Below, in pieces: positions 6,302 to 22,289 of a DNA stretch of 64,000 nucleotides (position 1 is the stretch's first letter; each line of letters opens with the position of its first letter). The notes beneath the pieces were generated by a model. That model was given only the letters and a program-made list of their open reading frames with translations, did no database searches and was not told where the DNA came from. Origin of the DNA: Tomitella gaofuii. Its GTDB lineage: Bacteria > Actinomycetota > Actinomycetes > Mycobacteriales > Mycobacteriaceae. The stretch spans positions 1,488,001 through 1,552,000 of the forward strand of contig NZ_CP059900.1 of the NCBI RefSeq assembly GCF_014126825.1, in the 5' to 3' direction. The position numbers were made by a program, and so were the translations under genes.

Positions 6302-7048
6302 TCAGCGGGTCGTGTAGGCGCTTCCGATGGGCCGCGGCCCGGCGTCTGCGGCCGGCTCTGCCGCGCCGGCCGGCGCGGGCCCGGCGGCGGGGCCCGGTGC
6401 CACCGGCAGCGATCCCACGCCGGCGTCGAGCACGCGCATCCCCTCGTCGAGCAGGGCGTGCAGCCGGGCAACCGATCCGGCGCCGCCGGCGGGACAGCCG
6501 TCGGGGGCGCCGTCGGCCCCGTCGAGCCACTTCTCGTAGGCGGACAGCGCCACGCCGAGCATCGTCCACGCCACCGACTGGGGGATGTGCTCGTCGGGGC
6601 GCATACCGGTCCGCCGCGCCACGTATTCGGCGATCGCCTGGCGCCAGTCGGTGTACATGAGCATCGAATACGCCTGCAGCGGCTGCTCGCCCAGGATCAG
6701 CGCCATCCGACGCCGGTGAGTGACGGCCTCCTCGTCGGGGAAGGTGTTGAAGCGGATGAGCACGCGGCGCAGCCCCTCGGCGAGCGGGATGCCGTCGGGG
6801 AGCGCGGCCAGCCCCTCCCGCATGCGCGCCAGGTGGCCCTCGAAGTCTCCCCAGGGCACCGCGTTCTTGGAGGGGAAGTAGCGGAAGAAGGTGCGGCGCG
6901 CTATACCCGCCGTCTCGGCGATCTCGTCGACGCTCGTCGCCTCGAAGCCCTGCTCGGTGAACAGCTTGATCCCGACGGCGCCGATCCGGTCGGCGCTCGT
7001 GGAGGGGCGCCTACCTGCCCGACCGGCGGGTTGTGTGACGTGCGGCAT
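6302..7048 (-). CDS. mftR: Mycofactocin system TetR-family regulator MftR
   Basis: A 248-residue TetR repressor divergent from mftA, the standard position of mftR. The N-terminal helix-turn-helix is clear: GFEATSVDEIAETAGIARRT then FFRYFPSKNA (residues ~34-65). The ligand-binding domain includes LIRFNTFPDEEAVTHRRRMA and ends in a Pro/Ala/Gly-rich tail (~205-248), longer than usual. Start ATG 7048 follows a strong GGGAGGAG. In mycobacteria MftR represses the mft genes and is reported to respond to long-chain acyl-CoA; the ligand here is inferred from that family knowledge. The 102-bp divergent intergenic region carries repeats that could be its operator. Confidence 0.92.
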   Translation of the reverse strand: MPHVTQPAGRAGRRPSTSADRIGAVGIKLFTEQGFEATSVDEIAETAGIARRTFFRYFPSKNAVPWGDFEGHLARMREGLAALPDGIPLAEGLRRVLIRFNTFPDEEAVTHRRRMALILGEQPLQAYSMLMYTDWRQAIAEYVARRTGMRPDEHIPQSVAWTMLGVALSAYEKWLDGADGAPDGCPAGGAGSVARLHALLDEGMRVLDAGVGSLPVAPGPAAGPAPAGAAEPAADAGPRPIGSAYTTR

Positions 7049-7064
7049 CGGATCTCCTCCCGGT

Positions 7065-7093
7065 GATGCAATTATGCACCCGATGCCATTACA
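7065..7093. promoter_or_regulatory. Direct repeats in the mftR-mftA divergent promoter region, candidate MftR operator
   Basis: Two 12-base copies 17 bp apart: GATGCAATTATG at 7065-7076 and GATGCCATTACA at 7082-7093 (9 of 12 identical). They are the only AT-rich patch in the 102-bp intergenic region. The first copy also contains TGCA-ATTA-TGCA, a short palindrome. The second runs into ATTACAGTGATGA (7088-7100), which recurs upstream of the GAF regulator. MftR binding is an inference from position. Confidence 0.45.
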
Positions 7094-7150
7094 GTGATGA
7101 ATCAGGTCACAGTCGCCACCTGGCCGTGGCCATCGTCGAAGGAGGTTCGC

Positions 7151-7255
7151 ATGTCCGACCGCAATGCAGTCCAGGCCGATGCCGTGGACACCGTGGTGGC
7201 CGAGGAGTCGCTGATCGAGGAGGTCTCGATCGACGGCATGTGCGGGGTCTACTGA
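7151..7255 (+). CDS. mftA: Mycofactocin precursor peptide MftA
   Basis: A 34-residue ribosomal peptide precursor. The C-terminus IDGMCGVY is the diagnostic mycofactocin core; the last Val-Tyr pair is decarboxylated and crosslinked by MftC and later released. The leader holds an acidic helix-like stretch (VVAEESLIEEVS) of the kind bound by MftB. The start ATG follows GAAGGAGG at 7138-7145 with good spacing. The stop TGA (7253-7255) overlaps the mftB ATG by one base, so translation is coupled. It is first in the plus-strand mft run and divergent from mftR. Confidence 0.97.
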   Translation: MSDRNAVQADAVDTVVAEESLIEEVSIDGMCGVY

Positions 7256-7551
7256 TGACTGCCGCCGCCCCCGGGTTCGAGACCGAGCCCGGGTGGCGGC
7301 TGCACCCCCAGGTGGCGCTGCGCCCCGAGCCGTTCGGCGCGTTGCTCTACCACTTCGGCACCCGGAAGCTGTCGTTCCTGAAGAACCGGACCGTCGTGGG
7401 GATCGTGCAGTCGTTGCCCGAGCACCCGTCCATCGCCGCCGCCATCGACGCGGCCGGTGTCGATGAGCAGTCGCGGCACCTGTACGTGCACGCGCTGACG
7501 ACGCTCGCGTCGTCGGACATGCTCGTGCGTTCCGGCCAGTCGGCCGCCTGA
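7255..7551 (+). CDS. mftB: Mycofactocin peptide chaperone MftB
   Basis: A 98-residue PqqD/RRE-fold chaperone that binds the MftA leader and delivers the peptide to MftC. The family segment WRLHPQVALRPEPFGALLYH is followed by TRKLSFLKNRTVVGIVQSL, matching MftB proteins in order and length. It starts in the TGATG junction with mftA and ends 30 bp before mftC. It has no cofactor motif, as expected for a recognition element. Confidence 0.95.
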   Translation: MTAAAPGFETEPGWRLHPQVALRPEPFGALLYHFGTRKLSFLKNRTVVGIVQSLPEHPSIAAAIDAAGVDEQSRHLYVHALTTLASSDMLVRSGQSAA

Positions 7552-7581
7552 GCAGCATCCCCGAGCAGTAATGGAGTACCC

Positions 7582-8844
7582 ATGACCGCCACACTTTCGC
7601 AGCCGGCGCCGGTCGGTCGCCTCGTCGACCAGTTCGAGTCCGGCCTCGACGCCCCCATCTGTCTGACCTGGGAGCTCACCTACGCGTGCAACCTGTCGTG
7701 CGTGCACTGCCTGTCCTCGTCGGGGCGGCGCAACCCGGACGAGCTCAGCACGGAGCAGTGCAAGGCCATCATCGACGAGCTGCAGCGCATGCAGGTGTTC
7801 TACGTCAACATCGGCGGCGGTGAGCCCACCGTGCGGCCCGACTTCTGGGAACTCGTCGACTACGCCACCGACCACCAGGTGGGCGTGAAGTTCTCCACGA
7901 ACGGCCTGAAGATCGACCGCGCCGTCGCCGAGCGACTCGCGGCGTCCGACTACGTCGACGTGCAGATCTCCCTCGACGGTGCCACCGCGGAGGTCAACGA
8001 CGCGGTGCGCGGCAAGGGCTCGTTCGCCATGGCCACCACGGCCCTGCAGAACCTGGCCGACGCCGGCTTCAAGGACGCCAAGATCTCGGTGGTCGTCACC
8101 CGCCACAACATCTCCCAGCTCGACGAGTTCAAGGCGCTCGCGGACCGCTTCGGCGCCACCCTGCGCATCACCCGCCTGCGCCCGTCGGGCCGTGCCGTGG
8201 ACGTGTGGGACGAGCTGCACCCGCTGCCCGAGCAGCAGCGCGAGCTCTACGACTGGCTCGTCGCCCACGGCGAAGGGGTCCTCACGGGCGACTCGTTCTT
8301 CCACCTGTCCGCCTACGGCGACGGCACCGGTGCGGGGGGCAACGGCGGCGGGCTGCCGGGGCTCAACCTGTGCGGGGCCGGCCGCGTGGTGTGCCTGATC
8401 GACCCGGTCGGCGACGTCTACGCCTGCCCGTTCGCCATCCACGACGAGTTCCTGGCGGGCAACGTGCTGCGCGACGGCGGCTTCGAGTCGGTGTGGAAGT
8501 CCGCCGAGTTGTTCCGTGAGCTGCGCGAGCCGCAATCCGCGGGCGCGTGCGCCAGCTGCAACTTCTACGACTCGTGCCGCGGCGGATGCATGGCCGCGAA
8601 GTTCTTCACCGGGCTGCCGCTCGACGGTCCCGATCCGGAATGCGTCAAGGGCTACGGCGAGGCGCTGCTGGCCGACCGCGGCATCGACATGGCGCTGCCG
8701 AAGCCCAGCGTCGACCAGTCGCACCGTGGCCGCAAGCGCGGAAGCGGTCCCGGCACGCCCATCCCGCTCAACCTCGTCACGCGGCCTCCGTCGCGCGCAT
8801 GCGACGAGAACCCGCTGGCGGACCTGCCCGAGCAGATGCGCTGA
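7582..8844 (+). CDS. mftC: Mycofactocin radical SAM maturase MftC
   Basis: A 420-residue radical SAM/SPASM enzyme that oxidatively decarboxylates the C-terminal Tyr of MftA and then forms the Val-Tyr carbon-carbon bond. The SAM cluster ligands are Cys36, Cys40 and Cys43 in TYACNLSCVHC. The glycine-rich NIGGGEPTVRP follows, about residue 75. Auxiliary SPASM cluster cysteines lie in NLCGAGRVVCLID, VYACPF, CASCNFYDSCRGGC and the DPEC segment. The last ~60 residues (HRGRKRGSGPGTPIPLNL onward) are a basic, proline-rich tail typical of the family. It lies between mftB and mftD in the usual order. Confidence 0.97.
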   Translation: MTATLSQPAPVGRLVDQFESGLDAPICLTWELTYACNLSCVHCLSSSGRRNPDELSTEQCKAIIDELQRMQVFYVNIGGGEPTVRPDFWELVDYATDHQVGVKFSTNGLKIDRAVAERLAASDYVDVQISLDGATAEVNDAVRGKGSFAMATTALQNLADAGFKDAKISVVVTRHNISQLDEFKALADRFGATLRITRLRPSGRAVDVWDELHPLPEQQRELYDWLVAHGEGVLTGDSFFHLSAYGDGTGAGGNGGGLPGLNLCGAGRVVCLIDPVGDVYACPFAIHDEFLAGNVLRDGGFESVWKSAELFRELREPQSAGACASCNFYDSCRGGCMAAKFFTGLPLDGPDPECVKGYGEALLADRGIDMALPKPSVDQSHRGRKRGSGPGTPIPLNLVTRPPSRACDENPLADLPEQMR

Positions 8845-8891
8845 ATCGGCACCCGCCACCTCCCCTGATCACCGGAAAGAAGTAGCAGCAC

Positions 8892-10064
8892 ATGGTAAAC
8901 CCCTGGTTCGAGACCGTAGCCGAGGCGCAGCGCCGCGCGAAGAAGCGCCTTCCGCGGCCCGTCTACATGGCACTGGTCGCCGGCTCCGAGAAGGGCCTGA
9001 CCACCAGCGACAACATGAACGCCTTCAGTGAACTCGGTTTCGCGCCGCACGTGGCCGGGCTCAAGGACGAGCGCGAGCTCGCCACCGAGGTGATGGGCCA
9101 GCCGCTGTCGATGCCGGTGATGATCTCGCCCACCGGCGTGCAGGCCGTGCACCCGGACGGCGAGGTGGCCGTCGCCCGCGGCGCCGCCAACAGGGGAGTG
9201 GCGATGGGACTGAGCTCCTTCGCCAGCAAGTCCATCGAGGAGGTCGCGGAGGCCAACCCGCAGACGTTCTTCCAGATGTACTGGGTGGGCGACAGGGACA
9301 CCCTCGTCGAGCGCATGGAACGCGCCCGCGCGGCCGGGGCCAAAGGCCTGATCATGACGCTCGACTGGTCGTTCTCCATGGGCCGCGACTGGGGCAGCCC
9401 GGAGATCCCCGAGAAGATGGACTTCACGGCGATGCGCAAGAACGCCCTGCAGGGCGCACTGCACCCCAAGTGGCTTCTGCAGTACGCCAAGTCGGGCGCC
9501 ATCCCGGACCTCACGACGCCGAACCTCAAGAAGCCGGGGCAGCCGGCGCCGACGTTCTTCGGCGCCTACGGCGAGTGGATGGGCACCCCGCTGCCCACGT
9601 GGGAGGACGTGGCCTGGCTGCGCGAGCAGTGGGGTGAGAACTTCATGCTCAAGGGCGTCATGCGCGTCGACGACGCCAAGCGTGCCGTCGATGCGGGCGT
9701 CACCGCGATCTCCGTGTCCAACCACGGCGGCAACAATCTCGACGGCACGCCGGCGCCGATCCGCGCGCTGGGACCCATCGCGGAGGCCGTGGGCGACCAG
9801 GTCGAGGTCGTCATGGACGGCGGCGTGCGCCGCGGCGGCGACGTCGTCAAGGCCCTCGCACTGGGCGCCAAGGCCGTGATGATCGGCCGCGCCTACCTGT
9901 GGGGCCTCGCCGCCAACGGGCAGGCCGGTGTGGAGAACGTGCTGGACATCATGCGCAGCGGCATCGACTCGGCCGTGCTGGGGCTCGGCCACAAGTCGGT
10001 GCACGACCTCAGTCCCGAGGACCTCATCATGGCCGAGGACTTCGTGCGCAAGCTGGGCGCCTGA
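8892..10064 (+). CDS. mftD: Pre-mycofactocin synthase MftD (FMN-dependent alpha-hydroxyacid dehydrogenase family)
   Basis: A 390-residue FMN TIM-barrel enzyme that oxidatively deaminates the crosslinked dipeptide intermediate to the redox-active pre-mycofactocin. Visible motifs are ISPTGVQAVHPDGE (~80), FQMYW (~128), and the flavin/active-site loop SNHGGNNLDGTP (~278). The loop keeps the catalytic His but has Asn-Asn where lactate/glycolate oxidases have Arg-Gln, which fits an amine rather than a hydroxyacid substrate. The C-terminal phosphate-binding part is VMDGGVRRGGDVVKALALGAKAV. It starts 47 bp after mftC and is followed by a strong hairpin. Confidence 0.95.
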   Translation: MVNPWFETVAEAQRRAKKRLPRPVYMALVAGSEKGLTTSDNMNAFSELGFAPHVAGLKDERELATEVMGQPLSMPVMISPTGVQAVHPDGEVAVARGAANRGVAMGLSSFASKSIEEVAEANPQTFFQMYWVGDRDTLVERMERARAAGAKGLIMTLDWSFSMGRDWGSPEIPEKMDFTAMRKNALQGALHPKWLLQYAKSGAIPDLTTPNLKKPGQPAPTFFGAYGEWMGTPLPTWEDVAWLREQWGENFMLKGVMRVDDAKRAVDAGVTAISVSNHGGNNLDGTPAPIRALGPIAEAVGDQVEVVMDGGVRRGGDVVKALALGAKAVMIGRAYLWGLAANGQAGVENVLDIMRSGIDSAVLGLGHKSVHDLSPEDLIMAEDFVRKLGA

Positions 10065-10093
10065 ACGGAGTCGGGCGCCTGAGCAGCGCGACG

Positions 10094-12127
10094 ATGCACG
10101 ATGGCGAACCCGCGCGGCCCGCACCGGCCGCGCGGGTTCCGCTTGCGGGGCGGGTGCGTCTGGCGGGCCGGCGCCCGCCGTCCGCGGTGCTGTTCGGTCC
10201 GCATGTCACCAACCTCGGAGTCGGCCGCGCGCTGTCGTCCGAGCACGCCGCCTACTACGCGGAGCGTGCGGCGGGCGGCGCGGGCATCGTGGTGACCGAG
10301 ACGGCGTCGGTGCACCCGTCGGACTGGCCGTATGAGCGGGCACCACTCGCCGCGGAATGCGCCGACGGCTGGGCGCGGATCGCCGAGTCCTCCCGCCCGC
10401 ACGGCACTATCGTGCTCGCCGGGCTCGGGCACCGTGGATTGCAGGGCAGCAGCGCGTTCGGCGACAGGGGGGCGCTGTGGGGCCCGTCGGCCGTGGCGGA
10501 CCCGGCCACCCGCGAGATGCCCGCGGTGATGGAGCGTGGCGAGATCGCCGCCGTCGTCGCCGGATTCGCGGACGCCGCACGGCGCGCGACCGGGGCCGGG
10601 TGCGACGGCGTGGAGATCGACGTCGGCCCGGCATCCCTGGTGCGGCAGTTCCTCTCCGACCTCACCAACAAGCGGGCCGACGGCTACGGGGAGGACCGTG
10701 CCGCGCTGCTGCTCGAGGTGCTCGGCGCGGTGCGGGCAGCCGTAGGGGACGCAGTGGTCGCGCTGCGGCTCACCTGTGACGAGGCCGTGTCCTGGGGCGG
10801 AATCGGTCCCGACGAGGCGACGGAGGCGGTGCGCCGTGCTGCGGACGCCGCGGATCTGATCACCGTCGTGCGCGGCGGCCTGTACACCGTCGACGCGTAC
10901 CGCCCGGTGGTGCTGCCGCCGTGGTCGCAGGCACATGCGCAGTGGGATACGGCGCCCGGCTTCAACGCGGAACTGTGCCGGGCGATGCGTGCGGCCGCAG
11001 ACGGCCGTGCGGCCGTGGTGCTGCAGGGATCCGTGGTCGATCCGGTTGCCGCCGAGGGGTTCCTGGCGGACGGCACGGCGGACTTCGTCGAGATGACCCG
11101 TGCGCTCATCGCCGACCCGCACCTGGTTTCCCGTGTGCGGGCGGGTGTTGCGCCGCGCCCGTGCCTTCTGTGCAACCAGGGGTGCATGGTGGACGACCCG
11201 CGCAATCCGCTCGTCGACTGCGCCGTGCGGCCGGGTCCGCCGGGGGACTCGATTCCGCCGGGGGAGTCGATTCCGGTGGCGGAGGAGTGCGGGGAGGCCG
11301 TGACCGATTGCGCAGAGGCAACCGCGGCGGATCCGCTCGGAGTGCTGGTGCTCGGCGCAGGGGTCGCCGGCCTTGCTGCCGCGCGCGTCATGGCGGTCGG
11401 TGGTGCGCGGGTGACGGTGCTCGAGCGTGCAGCGGCCCCCGGCGGGGTACTGCAGGCGGCCGCGGTCGCACGCCCGGCGCTCGCCGGCCTCCGCGGCTGG
11501 CTGGAGGGCGAGTGCGCGCGACTCGGTGTGCGGCTCGAGTGCGGTGTGCACGACGGCGCGCGGCGAGCGGCGGAGACGCTGCGACGCGGCACGCCGGTGA
11601 TTCAGGCGACCGGCGGCCTGCCGCGGCCGGCGGGCGTGCCGTGCGAGGCCTGGGCCGAGGCCGCTGCGGTGCTCGATACCGCGGGCGGGGTTCTACCGCT
11701 TCCCGACGGTCCTGTGCTGGTCAACGATCCGATAGGCGGCCCGGTGGGCGTCGCCGTCGCCGAATGGCTGGCCGCGGCCGGCCGCACGGTGCACCTGGTG
11801 ACGCCCGACCCGGTCGCGGGCGCCGAGCTGGCACGCGCGGGCGACCTCGTCGGCGCCAATGTGCGCCTGGCTCGCGCCGGGGTGACGAGGCACGTGCTCT
11901 CGGTGCTGCGCGGGCAACGCGACGGGGCAGCGGTGCTCGAGCACGGCCACACCGGTGAGCGTAGGGAGGTGCCGTGCGTACTGGTGGTGGATTGCGCGCC
12001 TCGGCTGCCTGGAGTATCGCTCGCAGGGGCCGTCCGCGCGGGCGACTGCGTAGCGCCGCGCACCGCGCTCGAGGCGATGCGCGAGGGGGAGGAGGCCGCG
12101 AGAACCACGCTCGCGCGACGCCGATAG
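10094..12127 (+). CDS. Mycofactocin-system FadH/OYE-family NADH:flavin oxidoreductase 1
   Basis: A 677-residue protein of the 2,4-dienoyl-CoA reductase/old-yellow-enzyme class. Residues ~1-370 form an FMN barrel (FGPHVTNLG, GLGHRGLQGSS, DGVEIDVGPASLVRQFLSD). Next is a [4Fe-4S] motif CLLCNQGC-x11-C at ~375-390. The C-terminal part has a Rossmann motif, VLVLGAGVAGLAAARV. The catalytic Asn-His-His type residues are only partly kept (LGHRG where relatives have NHNG). Families of this kind recur in mycofactocin loci, but their substrate is unknown. The start is uncertain: ATG 10094 lies before a perfect hairpin, and GTG 10154 is an alternative. Confidence 0.85.
   Translation: MHDGEPARPAPAARVPLAGRVRLAGRRPPSAVLFGPHVTNLGVGRALSSEHAAYYAERAAGGAGIVVTETASVHPSDWPYERAPLAAECADGWARIAESSRPHGTIVLAGLGHRGLQGSSAFGDRGALWGPSAVADPATREMPAVMERGEIAAVVAGFADAARRATGAGCDGVEIDVGPASLVRQFLSDLTNKRADGYGEDRAALLLEVLGAVRAAVGDAVVALRLTCDEAVSWGGIGPDEATEAVRRAADAADLITVVRGGLYTVDAYRPVVLPPWSQAHAQWDTAPGFNAELCRAMRAAADGRAAVVLQGSVVDPVAAEGFLADGTADFVEMTRALIADPHLVSRVRAGVAPRPCLLCNQGCMVDDPRNPLVDCAVRPGPPGDSIPPGESIPVAEECGEAVTDCAEATAADPLGVLVLGAGVAGLAAARVMAVGGARVTVLERAAAPGGVLQAAAVARPALAGLRGWLEGECARLGVRLECGVHDGARRAAETLRRGTPVIQATGGLPRPAGVPCEAWAEAAAVLDTAGGVLPLPDGPVLVNDPIGGPVGVAVAEWLAAAGRTVHLVTPDPVAGAELARAGDLVGANVRLARAGVTRHVLSVLRGQRDGAAVLEHGHTGERREVPCVLVVDCAPRLPGVSLAGAVRAGDCVAPRTALEAMREGEEAARTTLARRR
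10106..10139 (+). terminator. Terminator-like hairpin after mftD
   Basis: Perfect 14-bp inverted repeat: GAACCCGCGCGGCC at 10106-10119 and its complement at 10126-10139, with a six-base loop. It begins 41 bp past the mftD stop and lies across the first codons of the next open frame. It may end part of the mftABCD transcript or act as an attenuator before the downstream oxidoreductase. Confidence 0.55.
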
Positions 12128-12165
12128 GACGAAGGGGCGTGCGGTCAGGGGCGCGACGGGGGCGG

Positions 12166-12786
12166 TCAGAGCTCCGTCGGCAGCCCGTCGTCGTAGAGGT
12201 CCAGCACGTTGCGGGCGCCGCGGAGCGTGTCGACGACGCACCGCGCCGGCGTCGCGTACAGCTCCGGGTAATCGACCTCGCCGCGAGTCGGATCAATGGT
12301 CCACGCCAGTCGCTCGGCGCCCAGCGAGAACCGCGCGTCGATGCCGCCGGTGTTCCCGCGCGGGTCCTGCCGGTGCCAGGCTTCGCAGAGGTGCACGGCG
12401 ACGAGGCCGTGCAGGACGTGTCCGTCGCCGTGCTCGAGCCGCTGGTAACACAGGCCTGCGGGGATGCCCTGGCACCGCAGCAACGCTGCCAGCAGGTGCG
12501 CCTTGGCGTAGCAGAGGCCCACGCGTTCGGCGAGCACCTCGCCGGCGGTGAGCGTGACGCGTGGGTCGCGGGCGTCGTAGGAATGCGCCACTTCGTCTCG
12601 GACCCACTCGAAAGCCGTTCGGGCATAGGCCGTTGCGGTGGCAGTGGCGGTCGCGGCGGAGCCCGCCCGTGCCCGCAGGCCGCGCGCCAGCGTCAGAATC
12701 TCGGGGTCCGTCGTGTCGACGTAGGAATCGCGGCCGAGGAACGCCGCTGGCGAAGCGGCGGAGAAGCGCGGTGCGGTGCTCGTCAT
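12166..12786 (-). CDS. Transglutaminase-like cysteine protease-fold protein
   Basis: A 206-residue protein with a transglutaminase-like core. The nucleophile Cys is in RVGLCYAKAHLLAALLRCQG (about residue 95). The candidate catalytic His is in HGLVAVHLCEAWHRQDP (~132), and an acidic partner follows in the DPTRGEVDYPE region. Bacterial proteins of this group hydrolyse or crosslink peptides, but the substrate here is unknown. Start ATG 12786 removes an Arg-rich upstream extension. It faces the plus-strand mft genes and lies beside a small Rpf-type gene on the same strand. No signal peptide is visible, so a cytoplasmic site is likely. Confidence 0.75.
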   Translation of the reverse strand: MTSTAPRFSAASPAAFLGRDSYVDTTDPEILTLARGLRARAGSAATATATATAYARTAFEWVRDEVAHSYDARDPRVTLTAGEVLAERVGLCYAKAHLLAALLRCQGIPAGLCYQRLEHGDGHVLHGLVAVHLCEAWHRQDPRGNTGGIDARFSLGAERLAWTIDPTRGEVDYPELYATPARCVVDTLRGARNVLDLYDDGLPTEL

Positions 12787-12981: not shown

Positions 12982-13500
12982 TCAGGGGAACGGCAGCGCG
13001 ATCGACCCCGGCGGGATCATCGCCGCCGCCGAACCGAGCGGGTCGAACGAGCCCGGATCCATGGACCCCGGCGGCAGTGCCATCGACCCCGGTGGCAGCG
13101 CAACGGACCCCGGGAGCAGGTCCAGCGACCCCGGTGGCAGGAGCCCTTCGGTGGCCAGCGCAGGGCTGATGCCGGGGCGCAGGTGCGTGCCGCACGCCGG
13201 CCATGCGCCGATGCCCTGGCCGGCGAGCACGCGCTCCGCCACCCTGACCTGCTCGGCACGGGTGGCGTGCGCCGGATTGCCGACGCCGCCGTACGCCTGC
13301 CAGGTGGGCATGCTGAACTGCAAGCCGCCGTAGTAGCCGTTGCCGGTGTCGATATGCCAGTTTCCGCCGGACTCGCACTGCGCGACGCCGGTCCAGTCGT
13401 AGGCTGCGGCGGTACCGGCGCCGAGGGTCAATGCGATGCCGAGCGCTGCGCTCGTCGCGATCGTCGCGCCAAGGGTGCGGGTCATTGCGGGTGCGGCCAC
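12982..13500 (-). CDS. Small secreted Rpf-type (transglycosylase-like) protein with a Pro-Gly-Ser repeat tail
   Basis: A 172-residue secreted protein. The signal peptide covers ~1-34 (hydrophobic core [13 protein letters not shown], cleavage after TAAA). The resuscitation-promoting-factor domain is [18 protein letters not shown], then [19 protein letters not shown], with the catalytic Glu in CESGG and paired Cys. The last ~55 residues are about seven imperfect copies of PPGS/LPGS separated by short hydrophobic steps. Start GTG 13500 follows AAGGAG at ideal spacing. Rpf domains cleave peptidoglycan glycan strands. A second, larger Rpf gene lies at 54.2 kb. Why this one sits inside a mycofactocin locus is unclear. 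Confidence 0.88.
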
Positions 13501-13739: not shown

Positions 13740-14165
13740 ATGGAAGCCCTCGATACCGCACAGAAGTTCTTCCACGCCTGCGAGTCTGCGCAGGGGTGGA
13801 ACGAATGCCGCCAGTACGCCGAACCCGACGCGCAGTTCCACAGCCCCGCCGGCAGCTACACGGGATTGACGACGCTGGCAGCGTACTGCGACCAGGTCGC
13901 CGGGGCGTTCGCCACCACGTTCCGCGGTTCCACCTATGCGCTGGTCGCGTCCGGGTATGACGCGGACGCCGGTATCGCATTGCTGCACGGGATGTCCTAC
14001 GCCCAGCACACGGGGGACGGCGGGCCGGTGCCGCCGACGCACAAGAAGGCGGAGATCCCCTTCGTCTACTCGATCCGGATCAACTCGGAGAACAAGATCA
14101 CCCGCCTGGAGAAGCTGTACGACGAGTCGGCGTCGCGGGAGCTGCTGGGCTGGCCGGCTCTGTAG
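13740..14165 (+). CDS. NTF2/SnoaL-like domain protein
   Basis: A 141-residue protein with an NTF2-like alpha+beta fold. It opens with a helical segment (ALDTAQKFFHACESAQGWNE). Next is CRQYAEPDAQFHSPAGSY, where one expects the cone-lining residues of SnoaL-type proteins, and it ends in FVYSIRINSENKITRLEKLYDE. Proteins of this fold are enzymes or ligand binders with no shared reaction, so function is open. The ATG at 13740 follows GAGGAAGGAA. It lies upstream of, and on the same strand as, the second OYE-type gene, 61 bp away. Confidence 0.7.
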   Translation: MEALDTAQKFFHACESAQGWNECRQYAEPDAQFHSPAGSYTGLTTLAAYCDQVAGAFATTFRGSTYALVASGYDADAGIALLHGMSYAQHTGDGGPVPPTHKKAEIPFVYSIRINSENKITRLEKLYDESASRELLGWPAL

Positions 14166-14226
14166 GCGTACGCGCAGGGCGGAGGGGCGGGTCCGCATCG
14201 CCACTGTCACGACTACCGTCGGATGG

Positions 14227-16352
14227 GTGCGCATCGACCGATCCCCGGCCGCTCCGGCCCCGGCCGTCCCGTTGCTGTCGTCCCCGTTGCGGCTGGGCGC
14301 GGACGGGCGTGCGACGGTGCTGCGCGACCGTGTCGTGTTCTGCGCACACCTGACCAACCTGGCGGCGGACGGCATGCCGAACGCCGATCATGCTGCGTAC
14401 TACGAGGCGCGGGCGCGTGGCGGTGCGGGGTTGATCGTCACCGAGGAGCACACCGTGCACGCCTCGGACCGCCCCTACGAGAAGCTCATCCGCGGATTCG
14501 ACCCGGCGGTGGTGGAGGGCTACCGGCGGATCACGGACCGCGTCCACGCGCACGGCGCTGTCGTCCTCGCCCAGCTCAACCACAACGGTGCGCAGGGCAG
14601 CTCGCTGTACACCCGTCGCCCGCTGTCCGCGCCGAGCCCCGTGTGGGACCCGATGTTCCGTGAGGTTCCCCGCCCGCTGGACCGCGCGGGGATCGCGGAC
14701 ATCGTGCGCGGCTTCGCCGACACCGCCCGGCATTGCCGCCTCGGCGGGTTCGACGGGGTGGAGCTGCAGTGCTCGCAGGCCTCCCTGATCCGGCAGTTCC
14801 TCGCCCGCGGCACCAATCGCCGGGTCGACGACTACGGCGGCACGCCCGCCCGCCGCGCGCGGTTCCTGCTCGAGGTGATCGCCGCCGTGCGAGACGAGCT
14901 CGGCCCCGGGATGATCCTGGGCGTGCGACTGGCGGGGGAGGAGCAGGTCGACGGCGGTATCACGCTCGACGAGGCCGTGGCGCTGGCGCGGACGGTGGAG
15001 GCGACCGGCGCCGTCGACTACATCAACACCTCGATCGGTCTGGCGACGAGCACCCTGCACCTCATCGAGGCGTCGATGGCCACGCCGCCCGGCTACGCGC
15101 TGCACATCCCGTCGGCGCTGCGGGCCGCCGTCGCCCTGCCCGTGGTGGGTGTCGGCAGGTTCTCCCGGCCGAGCGATGCCGAGTCGGCCCTACGCGACGG
15201 CGCCTGCGATCTCGTCGGCGTCGTCCGCGGGCAGATCGCCGACCCGGATTTCACGGCCCAGGCGGTCACGGCCCTGTCCGGCGACGGCACGCCGCGTGTG
15301 TGCTCTGCGTGCAACCAGGAATGCATCGGGCGGGTCGGGTTCAACCGTCCCATCCGCTGCCTCCAGAACCCGCAGGCGGGACGGGAGACGCGGCGCGCAC
15401 CCCCGTCGGACTGTCCCGGCCCGAGCGGAGACTGCGCGTCACCGTGGTGGGCGGCGGCCCGGCGGGGATGCAGGCGGCGGTGTCCGCCGCCGAGAACGGC
15501 CACGAGGTCACCCTGTTCGAGAGGGGCCCGCGGCTCGGCGGCCAGATCACCCTCGCCGCCGCGGCGCCGTACCGGGAGGGCCTGGCGGAGATCACGCGGC
15601 ACCTGGCGCTGCGGTGCGCGGCGGCCGGGGTCCGCATCGAGTGCGGCGTCGCCGTCCGGGCGGGGATGTTCGATGCGGACATGCTTGACGGCGCGGGTGG
15701 AGTGCCCGACGTGGTCGTCGTCGCCACCGGGGCGCTGCCCGCCCCGCCGGGGTGGGCGCGTGGTCTGCCGGCCGACGCATACGCGGACGTGCGCGAGGTG
15801 CTCGCGGCCCCCGACGGGCCGCCGCACGGTTCGACGGCCGCGGGCCGGGTCCTCATCGTCGACGGACTGGGCTTCCACCCGGCCACCTCGGTGGCCGAGC
15901 TGCTCGCGGCGCGCGGCCACGCGGTGACCGTGTGCACGGACGGCATGGTGGTGGGGCAGGATCTGGGTGTGACTCTGGATCGTGAGGGCTGGCTGGCCCG
16001 GGCGCACCGGGCCGGGATCCGGCAGCGCACCGACACCGTCGTCGGCGCAGCGCGGCCGGACGGCTCCGGCGTGCGCGTCACCCTCGTCCACCACCCCACC
16101 GGGACATCATCGGAGGGGCGGTGGGACCGGGTGGTGTATGCGGGGCAGCAGAGGAGCGACGACGCGCTGTGGCGTGACCTGGCGTGCGCCGCACCCGGCA
16201 GGGGACGGCCGGAGACCGCGGGGGCTGCGAGATCCTCCGCAGGGTTCCCGATGTACCGGATCGGTGACGCGCTGGCTCCGCGCCGTGCAGACGCCGCGAT
16301 CCGCGAGGGCGAGCGCGTGGGGGCTCTGTTGGGGTCGGGTGCTGCGCTGTGA
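14227..16352 (+). pseudogene. Mycofactocin-system FadH/OYE-family NADH:flavin oxidoreductase 2, frameshifted
   Basis: Paralog of the 10.1-kb oxidoreductase. The FMN barrel is intact in the first frame, with FCAHLTNLAADG, AQLNHNGAQGSS (catalytic-type NHNG), GGFDGVELQCSQASLIRQFL and GVGRFSRPSDAE. A [4Fe-4S] motif CSACNQEC-x11-C follows. The C-terminal flavoprotein domain (VTVVGGGPAGMQAAVSAAE, then a second nucleotide-binding fold ending at TGA 16350-16352) is in a frame one base out. The break lies at about 15391-15435, near a CCCCC run. The start is probably GTG 14227. The stop overlaps the mftE GTG (GTGA), so the two genes are coupled and the gene is probably functional if the indel is an error. 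Confidence 0.85.
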
Positions 16353-17022
16353 ATCTCGCGGATTCGACATGGGCTGAAACGGCCGTGGACCTGCTGGTGG
16401 TGCCGGTCGGATCCGTAGAACAGCACGGCCCGCACCTGCCGCTGGACACGGACACCCGCATCGCCACCGCCGTCGCCGTTTCGCTGGACGAGGTGGTCGC
16501 ACCCGCCCTCGCCTACGGCGCCAGCGGCGAGCACGAGCAGTTCCCCGGCACCGTGTCGATCGGCTCCGAGGCCCTGCGCCTGCTGCTCGTCGAGTACGGA
16601 CGCTCGGCCTGCCGGTGGGCACGGCGGGTCGTCTTCGTCAACGGGCACGGCGGCAATGCCTCGGCGCTGGCGTCCGCGGTGAAACTGCTGCGCTACGAGG
16701 GCCGCGACGCCGCCTGGTGGACACCGGTGATCCCCGACGGCGACGCCCACGCCGGCCGCACCGAGACGGCGGTGATGCTGTACCTGGCGCCGGGCTCGGT
16801 GCGCATGCGCGCGGCGGCCCCCGGGAACACGGCGCCCGCGGGCGCGCTGTGGCAGGCGATGCGCGAGGGGGGGTGGCCGCGGTGAGCGTTTCGGGCGTCC
16901 TCGGCGACCCCACGGGCGCGACCGCGGACGAGGGGAGACGGATCGTGGAGGCGCTGTGCGCGGAGCTGCGGGCGGCGGTCGATGCGTGGAGTCCGGACGG
17001 GCACGGGAGGATCGCGGCGTGA
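16349..17022 (+). CDS. mftE: Mycofactocin peptidase MftE (creatininase family), C-terminal frameshift in a G run
   Basis: Creatininase-fold metallopeptidase that releases the Val-Tyr-derived moiety from modified MftA. All metal-site segments are in the leading frame: VGSVEQHGPHLPLDTDT (Glu, His, Asp), VNGHGGNAS and GDAHAGRTETA. That frame stops early at 16885 (178 residues). The run gag-GGGGGGG-tgg at 16867-16873 has seven G; eight would continue as EGGVAAVSVSGVLGDPTGAT to the TGA at 17020-17022, giving 224 residues, close to family length. The frameshift is therefore probably an error. Start GTG overlaps the previous stop, and the end overlaps the mftF start (GTGA). Confidence 0.92.
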
Positions 17023-18477
17023 GCGGTGCGCTTCCCATCGGATTCCGCGTCCGCATCGGGGCCTCGGTGCGTGTCCTCGACGGCGGCACGGCGCTGATCG
17101 GCGGCGCACCCACCCGGCTTCTGCGGCTCACACCCCGCGCTGCCGGGCTGCTCGCGTCGGGGGAGTTGACGGTGGTCGACGCGGTGACGGGAACACTCGC
17201 CCGCCGGTTGCTCGACACGGGCATCGCGCACCCCGACCTCTCGCCGGCTGATATCGGTCTGAGCGCCGAGCCGCTGCACGAGGCGACCGTCGTGGTCCCC
17301 GTGCGCGACAACCAGGCGGGCGTCGACCGGCTCCTGCGCGCGCTCGTCGGCGTGCCGGTGATCGTCGTCGACGACGGCTCGCCCACCCCGGTCCGCGCAC
17401 CCGGCGCGCGGGTGATCCGCCACGCCGCACCGCGCGGCCCCGGCCGCCGCCAGGAACGCGGGGCTGGCCGCCTGCGATACGGCGCTCGTCGCGTTCCTCG
17501 ATTCCGACACGGTCCCGCAACCGGGGTGGCTGGACGCGCTGTCGGCGCACTTCGCCGACCCTTCCGTCGCGCTCGCCGCGCCGCGCATCACTGCACTCGC
17601 CGCCGCGGACGAGCCGGGGACGATGCGGCCCGGTATCGGCCTCGTCCGATACGAGGAGATCCGGTCGTCCCTGGACCTGGGCGCGGCGCCGGGCCCGGTG
17701 GTGTCCGGCACCCCGGTGTCGTACGTGCCGAGCGCGGCGATGGTGGTGCGGCGGACGGCGATCACCGGGATCCCGACGGAGTCGTCGGTGGAGGGGGGCT
17801 TCGACGAGCGCATGCACGTGGCCGAAGACGTGGACCTGTGCTGGCGCTTGCACGAGGCCGGTTGGCGGCTGCGCTACGACCCGGCCGCGGTGGTAGCGCA
17901 TGAGCACCGGACGCGGCTGCACGGCTGGTGGGCGCGCAAGGCGTATTACGGGCTCGGGGCGGCGCCGCTCGCCGAGCGCCACCCGGGGCAGGTCGCACCG
18001 CTCATCCTCGCCCCGTGGTCCGCGGCCGCGGGGGCCGCGGTGTTCACGGGCACGCGCGCCGGCCTGGGCGTCGCGATCGTCGTCTCCGCGGCGGCGGGGG
18101 CGCGCATCGCGCGGACGCTCACAGGTCTGCAGCGCCCGCGGCAGACGGCAGGCCGGCTGCTCGCGCTGGGGTGCGGATCCGCACTGTGGCAGCTTGCGCT
18201 GGGGGTGTGCCGGCATTACTGGCCGTTGGCGGTCGCCTCCGCCGCGGTGTCCCGGCGGGCGCGGCGGGTCGTCCTGGTCACGGCGGTCGCCGAAGGGCTC
18301 GTCGATTGGTACGTGCGGGACCTGCGCGGAGGCGAGGGCCGTTGGCGGCGCCCCCGGCTGGATCCTGTCCGATACCTGGTGTGCAAGCGGCTCGACGACG
18401 CCGGCTACGGCTTCGGTCTGTGGCGGGGTGCGATCCGTGCACGCAGTGCCGCGGCGCTGTTGCCGCGGCGGGGGTGA
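17019..18477 (+). pseudogene. mftF: Mycofactocin glycosyltransferase MftF (GT2), frameshifted
   Basis: Family-2 glycosyltransferase that adds the beta-1,4-glucan chain to mycofactocin. The first frame gives the N-terminal domain and the start of the GT-A fold (EATVVVPVRDNQAGVDRLL, VPVIVVDDGSPTP). One extra base near 17430-17446 (ggccccggccgcc) shifts the frame. The protein continues as RNAGLAACDTALVAFLDSDT with the metal-binding DSD, then FDERMHVAEDVDLCWRLHEAGW (acceptor-site ED) and hydrophobic C-terminal segments. The combined length of ~485 residues matches the family. Start GTG 17019 overlaps the mftE stop. Confidence 0.9.
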
Positions 18478-18538
18478 CGGGGCGCCGTCGATCCGGCCCG
18501 TCCGCGAGTACGCAGGATTCCTTCCGCCTGTGACCCTG

Positions 18539-18551
18539 ATTACAGTGGTGA
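18539..18551 (+). promoter_or_regulatory. Promoter-like element shared with the mftA upstream region
   Basis: ATTACAGTGGTGA here matches ATTACAGTGATGA at 7088-7100 in the mftR-mftA region at 12 of 13 positions. It lies 20 bp before the GTG of the GAF regulator, just ahead of its GGAAGGAGG ribosome-binding site. TACAGT could act as a -10 hexamer, or the whole block could be an operator of one regulator controlling both units. Binding is an inference. Confidence 0.4.
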
Positions 18552-18571
18552 TCGTCGGAAGGAGGGCCACG

Positions 18572-20047
18572 GTGGCGGCGAACACGGTTCCCGGGCGGGC
18601 GGGGCAGTGGACTGCGCTGCGCCCGGGCGAGGATGCGGCGGCGGTGGCCCGGCGGCTCGGTGCGGCCCACGACCGGTTCGTCACCGGAGGCGCGCGGCAA
18701 GCGGGCCGGTCGACAAGGAGCGGGCCGGCCGGCGGATCGTCGTGGGGGAGCGCGGCGGGCGACGTGGCGCTGGCGGCGGACGTACGCGCGGTGGTCCTGG
18801 AATCCTGGGAGCGCAGCAGGTGCAGCGGGGTGGACCCGGAGGCGGAGTCCGCCGGTGTGGCCTTCGGCGACGCGGACCTGCGTGAATACCGAGCCGTCCA
18901 TCCTTTGGCCTCGGTGTTGCCGGTGGTGCGCACACTGCTCGTCGACGATGCCGTGGATGCGGAGCTGCTGGTCGCGATCAGCGACGCAGACGGGCGCCTG
19001 CTCTGGGTGGAGGGCGACACGTCGATGCGGGACCGCGCCGCGGCGATGGCGTTCGCGGAGGGGGCCGACTGGAGCGAGTCGGCCATGGGCACGAACGCCC
19101 CCGGCACCTCGCTTGCGCTGGACCACTGTGTGCAGTTGTTCGGCGCCGAGCACTTCGCGCGCACCGTCCGGCGGTGGAGCTGCGCGGCGGCCCCCGTGCA
19201 CGACCCGGCATCCGGCGCGATCCTGGGCTCCATCGACATCACCGGTGGCACTCGGGTGGCCGCACCGGAGGTCCTCACCCTCGTACGGGCGACCGTGGCG
19301 GCGGCCGAGGCGGAGCTGCGGTTGCGCGGCATCGCGGGCGGGCACCGTGCGGACGAGTGGCGCGATGTGTCCGCATCGGGGCCGGCGACGGTCGCCGACG
19401 CGCTCGCACCGCCGGCCGGCGCCGGTTCGCCGCACGCGCGGCGGCTGCGGGTCCTCGGGGGAGATCGGCCGACGCTGCGTGCCGGCCGCGGCGAGTCGCG
19501 GCTGTCGCCGCGGCATGCGGAGATCCTGGTGCTGCTGACCGAACATCCCGACGGGCTGAGCGCCGAGCGTCTCGCTGTGGAGCTCGACGAGCGTTCCCTG
19601 GACGCGGTGACCGTGCGCGCGGAGATGTCGCGATTGCGCCGGGTGCTCGGCGCGGACATGATCGCCTCGCGCCCCTACCGGTTGACGGGTTCCGTACTGA
19701 CCGATGTGATGGCGGTCCGCAGCGCGTTGAGCAGGGGCGATGTCGAGGAAGCGCTGCGCTTGTACCGCGGCCCGGCGCTGCCCGATTCGCTGGCGCCCGG
19801 GGTGTCGGAGGTGCGGGAGTCCCTCGACGCGCGCATGCGTGCGGCGGTGCTCCACAGTGGCGATCCGTCCCTGTTGCAACGCTGGGCCGCGACGTCGACC
19901 GGCCGGGACGACCCCGTCGTCTGGCAGGCGCTCGTCGCCCTGCTCCGCGCGGGTTCGCCCGCGTTCGTACAGGCCAAGGCGCATGCGGACCTGCTGGAGC
20001 GCCGGTTCGGCCGCGCTGCAACCCGGTTGCAACGTCCGCGCACTTAG
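18572..20047 (+). CDS. GAF-domain transcriptional regulator (AcoR-like N-terminus) next to aldehyde dehydrogenase
   Basis: A 491-residue regulator. Residues ~60-255 resemble the sensory part of AcoR-type activators: [54 protein letters not shown] and [19 protein letters not shown]. No sigma-54 ATPase domain (GAFTGA) is present. The C-terminal part (~310-410) has [20 protein letters not shown] and [18 protein letters not shown], a winged-helix-like DNA-binding unit, as in actinobacterial relatives found beside aldehyde dehydrogenase genes. The start is GTG 18572 with GGAAGGAGG upstream. It probably controls the aldehyde dehydrogenase starting 56 bp downstream. Confidence 0.8.
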
Positions 20048-20103
20048 TGTCGTGCATCACGCCCGGTCGGCCGGGTGGAGAACACGAACCCAAGGAGTGC
20101 GCG

Positions 20104-21627
20104 ATGACCGTGTATGCCCGCCCCGGTGCACCGGATGCTGTGATGTCGTTCCAGTCCCGCTACGACAACTGGATCAGCGGCGCCTGGACCGCCCCGGTGG
20201 GCGGCGAGTACTTCGAGAACACCACGCCGGTCACCGGCCAGGCCTTCTGCGAGGTCGCGCGGTCCGGCGCGGCCGACGTCGAGCTGGCGCTGGACGCCGC
20301 ACACGCCGCAGCCCCCGCCTGGGGCAAGACCACCGCCGCCGAACGGGCACTCGTCCTCAACAGCATCGCCGACCGCATGGAGGCGAACCTCGAGTCGATC
20401 GCCGTGGCCGAGTCGTGGGACAACGGCAAGCCGGTCCGCGAGACGCTCAACGCGGACATCCCGCTCGCGATCGACCACTTCCGGTACTTCGCCGGCGCGA
20501 TCCGCGCGCAGGAGGGCTCGCTCTCGCAGATCGACGAGGATACGGTCGCTTACCACTTCCATGAGCCGCTCGGCGTGGTCGGCCAGATCATCCCGTGGAA
20601 CTTCCCGATCCTCATGGCCACCTGGAAGCTGGCGCCCGCGCTCGCCGCCGGCAACGCGATCGTCATGAAGCCGGCCGAGCAGACCCCCGCGTCGATCATG
20701 CACCTGATCTCCCTCGTCGGGGACCTGCTGCCGGACGGCGTCCTCAACATCGTCAACGGCTTCGGCGCCGAGACCGGCAAACCCCTGGCGTCCAGCAACC
20801 GCATCGCCAAGGTGGCGTTCACCGGTGAGACCACCACCGGACGGCTGATCATGCAGTACGCCAGCCAGAACCTCATCCCGGTCACGCTGGAGCTGGGCGG
20901 CAAGAGTCCCAACATCTTCTTCGACGACGTCCTGGCCAAGGCCGACGCGTACCAGGACAAGGCGCTCGAAGGGTTCACGATGTTCGCCCTCAACCAGGGC
21001 GAGGTGTGCACCTGCCCGTCGCGGTCGCTTATCCAGAACACCATCTACGACGAGTTCCTGGAGCTCGCGGCCATCCGGACCAAGGCGGTGCGCCAGGGCG
21101 ATCCGCTCGACACCGAGACGATGATCGGCGCGCAGGCCTCGAACGACCAGTTCGAGAAGATCCTGTCCTACATCGACATCGGCAAGGCCGAGGGCGCCAC
21201 GGTGGTCACGGGCGGCGAGCGGTCCGACCTGGGCGGCGACCTGTCCGGCGGCTATTACATCCAGCCCACCGTGTTCGCGGGCACCAACGACATGCGGATC
21301 TTCCAGGAGGAGATCTTCGGCCCCGTCGTCTCGGTCACCTCGTTCACCGATTACGACGATGCCATCCGCATCGCCAACGACACCCTCTACGGGCTGGGCG
21401 CCGGAGTCTGGTCGCGCAACGGATCGACCGCCTACCGCGCCGGACGCGACATCCAGGCGGGGCGCGTGTGGACCAACACGTACCACCAGTACCCGGCGCA
21501 CGCGGCGTTCGGCGGCTACAAGCAGTCGGGCTTCGGTCGGGAGAACCACCGCATGATGCTCGACCACTACCAGCAGACGAAGAACCTGCTCGTCTCCTAC
21601 GCCGAAGGGGCCCAGGGCTTCTTCTGA
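20104..21627 (+). CDS. NAD-dependent aldehyde dehydrogenase (ExaC/AldA type)
   Basis: A 507-residue aldehyde dehydrogenase that oxidises aldehydes such as acetaldehyde to acids with NAD. Visible are the substrate/cofactor segment [20 protein letters not shown] (~165), catalytic Glu in LELGGKSPN (~263), catalytic Cys in [13 protein letters not shown] (~302), and [10 protein letters not shown] (~405). The CTCPSR context is typical of the ExaC group expressed during ethanol growth. Start ATG follows AAGGAG. Together with the upstream GAF regulator and downstream DUF779 gene it forms a common actinobacterial unit, here joined to a mycofactocin locus, which fits alcohol oxidation through mycofactocin-dependent dehydrogenases. 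Confidence 0.95.
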
Positions 21628-21633
21628 GCGGCT

Positions 21634-21676
21634 TCCCCGGCCGCCGTATCCCCCCTCCCCCCGTGGCGGCCGGGGA
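21634..21676 (+). terminator. Hairpin 1 after aldehyde dehydrogenase
   Basis: Perfect 12-bp stem: TCCCCGGCCGCC at 21634-21645 and its complement at 21665-21676. The 19-base loop is mostly C. It starts 6 bp past the stop codon and is the first of two perfect hairpins in a row before the DUF779 gene. Confidence 0.6.
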
Positions 21677-21681
21677 CTCAC

Positions 21682-21724
21682 GCCGGTGCGGGGGACGAGC
21701 GTCGATGCCGTCCCCCGCACCGGC
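21682..21724 (+). terminator. Hairpin 2 after aldehyde dehydrogenase
   Basis: Perfect 16-bp stem: GCCGGTGCGGGGGACG at 21682-21697 and its complement at 21709-21724, with an 11-base loop. It is stronger than hairpin 1 and ends 40 bp before the DUF779 start. It could be a terminator that sets the ratio between the dehydrogenase and DUF779 messages, or a stabiliser of the upstream mRNA 3' end. Confidence 0.6.
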
Positions 21725-21764
21725 GGCCATCCGACCCGGAACACTCGCGAACCGAGGACCGTTC

Positions 21765-22289
21765 ATGACCGCACCCGCGCGCGTTGTCGCCACCGTGGCG
21801 GCCCGTGACCTGCTGTGCAGCCTTCGCCGCCGGCACGGTCCGCTCATGCTCCACCAGTCCGGCGGCTGCTGCGACGGGTCTTCGCCGATGTGCTACGGCG
21901 CCGGGGAGTTCCTCGTGGGCGACCGCGACGTCCTCCTGGGCGAGCTCGATCTGGCGGCGGTGCCCGGCGCGGTTGCGGCCGAACGCCCCATCGGCGACGA
22001 CGCCGTGGCCGTGTGGATCTCCGGGCCGCAGTACGCGGCGTGGCAGCACACGCAGCTGATCCTCGACGTGGTCGCAGGTCGTGGTGGAGGCTTCAGTCTG
22101 GAGGCGCCCGAGGGCCTCCGGTTCCTCACCCGTTCGCGCCCGTTCATGCGCGCGGAGCTGCGGGCGTTGACCGACGCGCCGCCGCTGACCGGCGTGCAGG
22201 TGGAGGCGGGAGTCGTCCCTCCGACGCCCGGATTCCCCGTGGTGGTGGCGGACGCCGCTGAGGCGGAGGCGGCCTGCGGGTTCCGCTGA
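21765..22289 (+). CDS. DUF779 domain protein
   Basis: A 174-residue protein. The diagnostic DUF779 segment LMLHQSGGCCDGSSPMCYGAGEF (~34-56) supplies three Cys and one His that could bind metal. WISGPQYAAWQHTQLILDVVAGRGGGFSLE follows at ~94-123. The last ~40 residues (PPLTGVQVEAGVVPPTPGF onward) extend past the usual domain. DUF779 genes commonly follow ExaC-type aldehyde dehydrogenases, but their biochemical role is not established. The ATG at 21765 has only a weak GAGGA ribosome-binding site. Confidence 0.88.
   Translation: MTAPARVVATVAARDLLCSLRRRHGPLMLHQSGGCCDGSSPMCYGAGEFLVGDRDVLLGELDLAAVPGAVAAERPIGDDAVAVWISGPQYAAWQHTQLILDVVAGRGGGFSLEAPEGLRFLTRSRPFMRAELRALTDAPPLTGVQVEAGVVPPTPGFPVVVADAAEAEAACGFR

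Follow-up and report, generated by a model that had tools for sequence, protein, structure and literature searches.

A paired flavo-iron-sulfur oxidoreductase of the Tomitella mycofactocin locus occupies the mftD position in other families and may act at the MftD step

The window analyzed here is a stretch of 64,000 nucleotides of Tomitella gaofuii (contig NZ_CP059900.1, positions 1,488,001 to 1,552,000) that carries, from position 6302 to 22289, a locus for the cofactor mycofactocin with two genes, OYE1 and OYE2, for oxidoreductases of the FadH/old yellow enzyme (OYE) type. In all 43 OYE1-positive genomes that we found outside the window's family, OYE1 stands directly behind mftC, which is the usual place of mftD. 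Because OYE1 fills the mftD slot in these genomes, we propose, tentatively and with somewhat less than even confidence, that OYE1 and OYE2 are a paired flavo-iron-sulfur oxidoreductase of mycofactocin biosynthesis that would perform, replace, or back up the MftD step. According to PMC7491314, MftE releases 3-amino-5-[(p-hydroxyphenyl)methyl]-4,4-dimethyl-2-pyrrolidinone (AHDP), MftD then oxidatively deaminates it to pre-mycofactocin, and Mycobacterium smegmatis without mftD makes no pre-mycofactocin. The MftD step is termed aerobic in a passage of PMC8406134.

The genome under study (G000) is one contig of 4.35 Mb, and its nearest named relative found was Tomitella cavernea JCM 18542, whose MftD is 99% identical. 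We used a set of 101 relatives, 65 of them mftC positive and 36 mftC negative, and an order-wide set of 396 genomes, each at least 95% complete, in which mftC was looked for in the 47 OYE1-positive genomes (the other 349 being OYE1 negative). OYE1 and OYE2 were called with the curated, whole-protein profiles TIGR03996 and TIGR03997 at their cut-offs of 627.9 and 793.15 bits. Combined, the two sets held 59 OYE1-positive genomes, 16 from the window's family and 43 from other families. In those 43, the profile ends of mftC and OYE1 were 122 to 332 bp apart, and no MftD was found within 20 kb downstream of the slot mftC. Among the 44 relatives with mftC and no OYE1, MftD lay at most 350 bp downstream of mftC in 31 and 3 to 4 kb downstream in 3; the remaining 10 had no MftD downstream on the same contig, and in 2 of these, G065 (86% complete) and G091 (74% complete), no MftD was found.

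Twenty regions from 17 genomes were retrieved. OYE2 was present in 17 of 17 OYE-slot loci (cut by the region's end in one), and the precursor end DGMCGVY was unchanged in all 20 retrieved loci. Two of the genomes, G367 and G435, have two mft loci each, with mftD directly behind mftC in one and OYE1 there in the other, and G406 has an OYE1 locus plus a second locus with mftD behind mftE-mftF. The slot exchange occurred several times or was reversed, as read from a tree of 53 chosen MftC proteins in which no fewer than five switches of the OYE-slot label, on branches with good support, are required. MftD over its cut-off was missing in 4 of the 59 OYE1-positive genomes (G068, G399, G427, and G484, the last a single contig); G399 and G484 contain subthreshold relatives of 332 and 241 bits, and G068 and G427 contain none at an E value of 1e-60. 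MftD was missing in none of the 42 OYE1-negative mftC genomes that were at least 90% complete; with the poorer drafts G065 and G091 included, the figure is 2 of 44.

OYE1 and OYE2 occur together. Among the best 80 of 172 loci found by the mftD search, 26 had both OYE genes, none had one alone, and 5 were too short to tell; the 49 loci with room and without OYE consisted of 14 with two mftD genes and 35 with neither OYE nor a second mftD, so that OYE was absent from 14 of 14 two-mftD loci with room. In the relatives, OYE1 was over its cut-off in 21 of 65 mftC-positive genomes versus 0 of 36 mftC-negative ones (Fisher P = 5e-5), which bears out an earlier note, made from the window's letters, that had called OYE-type genes associates of mft loci. 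OYE2 was over its cut-off in 20 relatives, the same genomes except our own, where OYE2 is broken, and in all 20 it adjoined OYE1, within about 4.2 kb on one contig and strand. In the draft G001 (81% complete), both OYE1 and OYE2 were under their cut-offs and no mftC was found. All 47 genomes of the order-wide set with OYE1 over its cut-off had mftC, and mftC was present in 59 of 59 such genomes overall. Because of the paired occurrence in mftD loci and the restriction of OYE1 over its cut-off to mftC genomes, the OYE pair, judged by its distribution, belongs to the mycofactocin system.

In one genome the pairing goes further. G098 (locus L142, region G098:C7:137000-155000, minus strand) has OYE1 and OYE2 fused behind mftC in one open frame of 1335 residues, with OYE1 at residues 8 to 636 and OYE2 at residues 685 to 1335. 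This fusion supports a putative physical pair of OYE1 and OYE2; it is less likely that two adjacent genes lack a stop between them by an accident of sequence. As a separate observation, the 14 tandem-mftD, OYE-free loci belong to Rhodococcus and Rhodococcoides (L013, L016, L018, L019, L020, L022, L024, L028, L029, L032, L034, L037, L038, and L040), and the second mftD copy of L016 is over the MftD cut-off at 681 bits.

We also examined the residues of the two proteins. The best solved match of OYE2 was the 2,4-dienoyl-CoA reductase FadH (1ps9), which was second for OYE1; trimethylamine dehydrogenase and histamine dehydrogenase also matched OYE2. For the residue counts, 43 OYE1 rows and 42 OYE2 rows were aligned to 1ps9 after OYE1 of L035 (whose match starts in another frame) and OYE2 of L140 (cut at the region's end) had been left out. 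The window's OYE1 is among the OYE1 rows, and the N-terminal piece of the window's OYE2 carries the same residues as the OYE2 rows. The catalytic residues of FadH, Tyr166 and His252, were mapped by this alignment. At the Tyr place, all 42 OYE2 rows have Ser, and each of the 43 OYE1 rows has Ser, Ala, or Gly. At the His place, all 42 OYE2 rows have Ala, and among the 43 OYE1 rows only L141 has His. The Gln at the flavin mononucleotide (FMN) was kept in 42 of 42 OYE2 rows and lost in 42 of 43 OYE1 rows, the sole Gln being that of the fused frame L142, whose Gln and Arg at two places come, as read, from its OYE2 half. Every OYE2 row (42 of 42) has the four 4Fe-4S cysteines complete, as do 37 of the 43 OYE1 rows, including that of the window. 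In place of GxGxxG, the second nucleotide motif reads DxLGFHxxTSVAE in OYE2 and DPxGGPVxVAVAE in OYE1. The genome's own FadH paralogue keeps the catalytic Tyr and His and GxGxxG. Because the FMN Gln and the cysteines are invariant in OYE2 and the FadH residues are replaced in both proteins, the alignment suggests that OYE2 may be the catalytic chain and OYE1 a degenerate partner, with a substrate other than dienoyl-CoA. A second OYE2-like protein (L148, G000:C1:4252598-4254526) is encoded outside the mft locus; it scores 585 bits to TIGR03997, under the cut-off, and its second domain is without GxGxxG.

If the pair acts at the MftD step, OYE1/OYE2 would oxidize the amino-lactam AHDP to the alpha-keto lactam pre-mycofactocin. 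OYE2 would be the likely catalytic chain of a putative heteromer in which OYE1, with its degenerate FMN site, is the partner chain, and the electrons would go to a presumed acceptor. In the window's lineage the pair would work beside MftD, and in other families it has the position of mftD. Because trimethylamine dehydrogenase and histamine dehydrogenase match OYE2, we counted membership in a protein family that includes amine dehydrogenases in favor of this step. The absence of OYE genes from the two-mftD loci and the mftD-free Saccharopolyspora clusters described below were also counted in its favor. Several results weigh against it. The main weakness is that MftD is still encoded elsewhere in 39 of the 43 OYE-slot genomes, and the contrast in MftD absence, 4 of 59 versus 0 of 42, is not significant (P = 0.14) and becomes weaker with the two poor drafts. 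Of the 16 genomes of the window's family, 14 have mftD in place (mftC-mftD-OYE1), and the other 2 (G022 and G047) have the pair on another contig than mftC. At the supposed places of the catalytic Tyr and His of the active-site loop of trimethylamine and histamine dehydrogenase, OYE2 has Gln in 42 of 42 rows for Tyr and Gln (23 rows) or His (19 rows) for His. Furthermore, several loci have genes for mycofactocin-coupled short-chain dehydrogenases/reductases (SDRs) between OYE1 and OYE2, an arrangement that would also fit a role in the use of mycofactocin.

Such a role, in which the pair uses or recharges finished mycofactocin, had been suggested by the earlier note. We consider it, with the pair as a redox partner that passes electrons between the mycofactocin pool and another carrier, unlikely, though a serious rival. 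The occurrence of OYE1 over its cut-off only with mftC agrees with it, as does the finding that 10 of the 26 OYE loci carry an SDR gene, from a single cluster, between OYE1 and OYE2. Three tested SDR members (L008, L030, and L054) are mycofactocin-coupled SDRs over the TIGR03971 cut-off, and in G239, G174, and G071, too, the OYE genes have SDR genes between them. However, use or recharging leaves both the OYE1 in the mftD slot and the OYE genes of the MftD-free genomes unexplained, and the slot position in 43 of 43 genomes points rather to biosynthesis. The second nucleotide motif without GxGxxG speaks against a plain link to NAD(P)H. Nor does the pair look like a stand-in for MftG, the known mycofactocin dehydrogenase (PMC11778925). 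We rejected that candidate since a search of 50 genomes gave 43 with MftG over its cut-off, our own and all 26 with OYE among them; this count leaves out the draft G001, whose best MftG match is under the cut-off. The genome's own MftG (G000:C1:1484810-1486261, 495 bits) ends 1.7 kb before the window begins, at a distance of about 8 kb from mftR. With respect to the SDR genes themselves, one of the same cluster lies behind mftD in the OYE-free locus L054, and L139 and L140 (family f16) have three and four SDR genes in a row after OYE1 and before OYE2.

A tailoring role, in which the pair makes a modified mycofactocin from the core and does not replace MftD, fits both the coexistence of MftD and OYE in most genomes and the changed active site. 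We find it improbable, because the four MftD-free genomes would then need another, unknown enzyme to remove the amine and because the precursor end is the same in every retrieved locus. That the OYE proteins are ordinary catabolic ene-reductases of the FadH type, coregulated with mft by chance, is the reading to which we give the least credence. In its favor, 1ps9 ranks first among the solved matches of OYE2 and second among those of OYE1. The active-site residues led us to discard it: the Tyr place is replaced in every row of both proteins and the His place in all but one OYE1 row, whereas the genome's own FadH paralogue retains both residues and GxGxxG. Furthermore, the OYE genes come after mftC or mftD and not after catabolic genes.

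A bolder form of the MftD-step proposal, which we regard as rather unlikely, is that OYE1/OYE2 would be a nonhomologous, oxygen-independent AHDP dehydrogenase and a second widespread route to the redox center of mycofactocin. In this case OYE2, together with the degenerate OYE1, would pass electrons via the 4Fe-4S cluster to a protein acceptor and not to oxygen, and actinobacteria could make the cofactor when MftD is absent or unable to work. The slot exchange joins two questions, namely, the reaction of two named families and the making of the cofactor in mftD-free clusters. If the proposal is true, mycofactocin would have two unrelated enzymes for the redox-center step, one perhaps working without oxygen, and annotation rules that require mftD would miss part of the mycofactocin producers.

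The NCBIfam family names of TIGR03996 and TIGR03997 (mycofactocin FadH/OYE oxidoreductases 1 and 2) and the absence of mftD beside TIGR03997 in one genus were already known. The family names state no reaction; the Tomitella OYE1 is over its cut-off, and the OYE2 pieces match TIGR03997 best but stay under its cut-off. Saccharopolyspora clusters are described in the consulted part of PMC11162802 as having TIGR03997 and no mftD, and S. erythraea is said there to make methylated mycofactocin. That part notes the mftD gap, does not propose the OYE gene as its filler, and does not mention an OYE1 partner; the Tomitella locus shares the TIGR03997 gene with these mycofactocin-like clusters but has mftD. 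Pseudomonas XenA-like reductases are placed under the OYE family name, without mycofactocin context, in a passage of PMC7913881, and the words FadH and OYE and both family numbers are absent from the portion of Haft 2011 (PMC3023750) covered. Within the accessible parts of the open-access literature on mycofactocin and the OYE family, we found no paper that assigns the OYE genes a reaction or describes a slot exchange or a fusion. FadH, trimethylamine dehydrogenase, and histamine dehydrogenase have the FMN barrel, the 4Fe-4S cysteines, and the nucleotide domains in common with the OYE pair. The catalytic residues of FadH are exchanged in OYE1 and OYE2, apart from a single row at one of the two places, and those of the amine dehydrogenases appear to differ too.

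The genes of the locus in the window are as follows.
6302..7048, minus strand: mftR, TetR-type regulator (TIGR03968, 257 bits; cut-off, 225)
7151..7255, plus strand: mftA, precursor peptide ending in IDGMCGVY (TIGR03969, over the cut-off)
7255..7551, plus strand: mftB, chaperone, its start overlapping the mftA stop (TIGR03967, 110 bits; cut-off, 33)
7582..8844, plus strand: mftC, radical SAM maturase (TIGR03962, 643 bits; cut-off, 265)
8892..10064, plus strand: mftD, pre-mycofactocin synthase (TIGR03966, 694 bits; cut-off, 471)
10094..12127, plus strand: OYE1, oxidoreductase with an FMN barrel and 4Fe-4S cysteines, the more degenerate of the pair (TIGR03996, 705 bits; cut-off, 627.9; PF00724)
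12166..12786, minus strand: transglutaminase-core protein, convergent with OYE1 and outside the operon (PF01841)
12982..13485, minus strand: secreted Rpf-type transglycosylase, outside the operon (PF06737; RpfC-like at 117 bits, under the cut-off of 200)
13740..14165, plus strand: SnoaL-like small protein, opening a second plus-strand unit (PF12680, 25 bits, under the cut-off of 27; T. cavernea copy, 27.8)
14227..15400, plus strand: N-terminal piece of OYE2, with FMN and 4Fe-4S parts (TIGR03997 positions 2 to 368, 564 bits; frame change near 15390)
15400..16352, plus strand: C-terminal, nucleotide-binding piece of OYE2 in another frame (TIGR03997 positions 334 to 643, 248 bits)
16349..17022, plus strand: mftE in two frames (TIGR03964 positions 1 to 181, 256 bits, and 179 to 227, 52 bits; frame change near 16870)
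16986..18477, plus strand: mftF in two frames (TIGR03965 positions 1 to 149, 97 bits, and 137 to 464, 373 bits; frame change near 17440)
18530..20047, plus strand: probable transcriptional regulator of the aldehyde dehydrogenase unit, partly DhaR-like (partial NF008485, 59 bits, far under the cut-off of 551; no Pfam family)
20104..21627, plus strand: ExaC-type aldehyde dehydrogenase (NF050026, 948 bits; cut-off, 900)
21705..22289, plus strand: DUF779 protein beside the aldehyde dehydrogenase (PF05610, 138 bits)

Here mftR is divergent, and mftA, mftB, mftC, mftD, and OYE1 then run on the plus strand. As in a mycofactocin cluster, a precursor gene with IDGMCGVY adjoins mftB and mftC; as for intact MftD, MftE, and MftF, mftD alone is intact. 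The earlier note's statement that all core genes were present therefore held for mftR and mftA to mftD, each over its NCBIfam cut-off, and not for mftE and mftF, seen only as pieces. Likewise, its two related FMN/FeS oxidoreductases were found, with OYE2 divided between two frames. The transglutaminase-like, Rpf-type, and NTF2-fold genes that it listed were recovered (the last as the weak SnoaL-like match), and so was its aldehyde dehydrogenase unit with the DUF779 gene behind. The regulator gene at 18530..20047 has a counterpart behind mftF in four other Tomitella genomes. The order of mftR to mftD and the core peptide are alike in the mftA-to-mftF cluster of mycobacteria (Haft 2011, PMC3023750; Pena-Ortiz 2020, PMC7491314). 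Unlike that cluster, the Tomitella locus is split by two reverse genes, has OYE1 and OYE2, and has frame-broken mftE and mftF.

Because the transglutaminase-like and Rpf genes are on the opposite strand, the mft genes, as read from gene order, form two separate units, mftA-OYE1 and SnoaL-OYE2-mftE-mftF, and a single mftA-mftF transcript is unlikely with these two reverse genes in its middle. The idea that the five extra genes all belong to one mftA-mftF operon thus fails for the two on the minus strand, and the overlap of OYE2 with mftE, which does exist at 16349 to 16352, belongs to the C-terminal piece of OYE2. A scan of positions 6000 to 22500 for promoter and terminator patterns found none (shuffles averaged 0.5 and 2.4). 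The transglutaminase, Rpf, and SnoaL genes were present together in only 1 of the 80 mftD loci, that of T. cavernea, and in a further Tomitella genome, G003; they were not in T. biformata, and none was seen on the short G001 contig. Co-occurrence across mft loci therefore holds for the two OYE genes and not for the small ones, and we rejected the five extra genes as one module on the basis of strand and distribution.

The earlier note had overlooked that three listed genes are not intact as sequenced, which is a warning for the use of this window. OYE2, mftE, and mftF each match their own family as two successive pieces in different frames, and each break is a single-nucleotide length difference from T. 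cavernea, near 15390, 16870, and 17440 (nucleotide alignment of 13690 to 20050, 98.2% identical). In T. cavernea, T. biformata, and G003, as well as on the short G001 contig, the genes are each read in a single open frame. It is because of its frame break that OYE2 as read here is under the TIGR03997 cut-off (564 plus 248 bits); the intact T. cavernea gene scores 814 bits. A search of the genome for a further mftE found no other match, and the other mftF matches were all under the cut-off, the best having 216 bits and two internal stops (G000:C1:2423001-2423978). If the sequence is right, the mycofactocin pathway may be off in this strain because of the three breaks.

Whether these breaks are sequencing errors or recent decay was weighed against other sequence aligned to T. 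cavernea, and we lean slightly to error. Relative to T. cavernea, 11 frame changes were counted in 182 orthologues in one direction (OYE2 and mftF included) and 7 in 186 in the other, a rough baseline, as the procedure missed mftE and several changes, as read, fall in doubtful open frames or at the ends of genes. The alignment to T. cavernea, about 231 kb long, contained 57 clean insertions or deletions whose length is not a multiple of three; 25 of these, counting those in mft, fell in called genes. Elsewhere in this alignment frame changes occur at a lower rate than the three in 2.05 kb of mft. That the 3' half of the locus has truly decayed in this Tomitella strain is plausible, if short of an even chance. 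If 4, 8, or 22 other breaks are assumed as an estimated baseline, three would fall in a particular 2-kb stretch with a probability of 7e-6, 6e-5, or 1e-3, which becomes 8e-4, 6e-3, or 0.12 after correction for 112 places, and the intact genes of the other Tomitella genomes fit decay too. However, all three breaks are of one base and lie within or create homopolymer runs, as is typical of sequencing errors. Near its end (window about 1368 to 1390), metE, for the B12-independent methionine synthase, also seems to be changed in frame relative to T. cavernea, the pattern expected of an error-prone assembly. Nor is there a clear loss of constraint: the large pieces of OYE2, mftE, and mftF have ratios of nonsynonymous to synonymous substitution rates (dN/dS) of 0.44, 0.44, 0.25, and 0.27, and the intact neighboring regulator has one of 0.39; the short mftE and mftF pieces gave 0.75 and 0, on one to three changes.

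The three breaks fall within a block of the window from 14 to 22 kb. In 1-kb steps, this block is 97.4 to 98.8% identical to T. cavernea, and the steps outside it from 1 to 34 kb are 81 to 97% identical; G003 is 75 to 95% identical within the block. The synonymous rate dS relative to T. cavernea is 0.01 to 0.04 from OYE2 to the regulator and 0.08 to 0.33 from mftR to OYE1. Because identity in the block is high and dS low compared with the flanks, the 3' half of the locus (OYE2, mftE, mftF, the regulator, and the aldehyde dehydrogenase) seems to have passed between Tomitella lineages by recent recombination. An Rfam scan of the window gave a single match, which is outside the mft locus: a cyclic di-AMP riboswitch (RF00379, 54825 to 55000, minus strand, 41 bits; cut-off, 38). 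It sits on the 5' side of a second Rpf-type transglycosylase gene, an open frame at 54162 to 54851 on the minus strand (PF06737, 121 bits).

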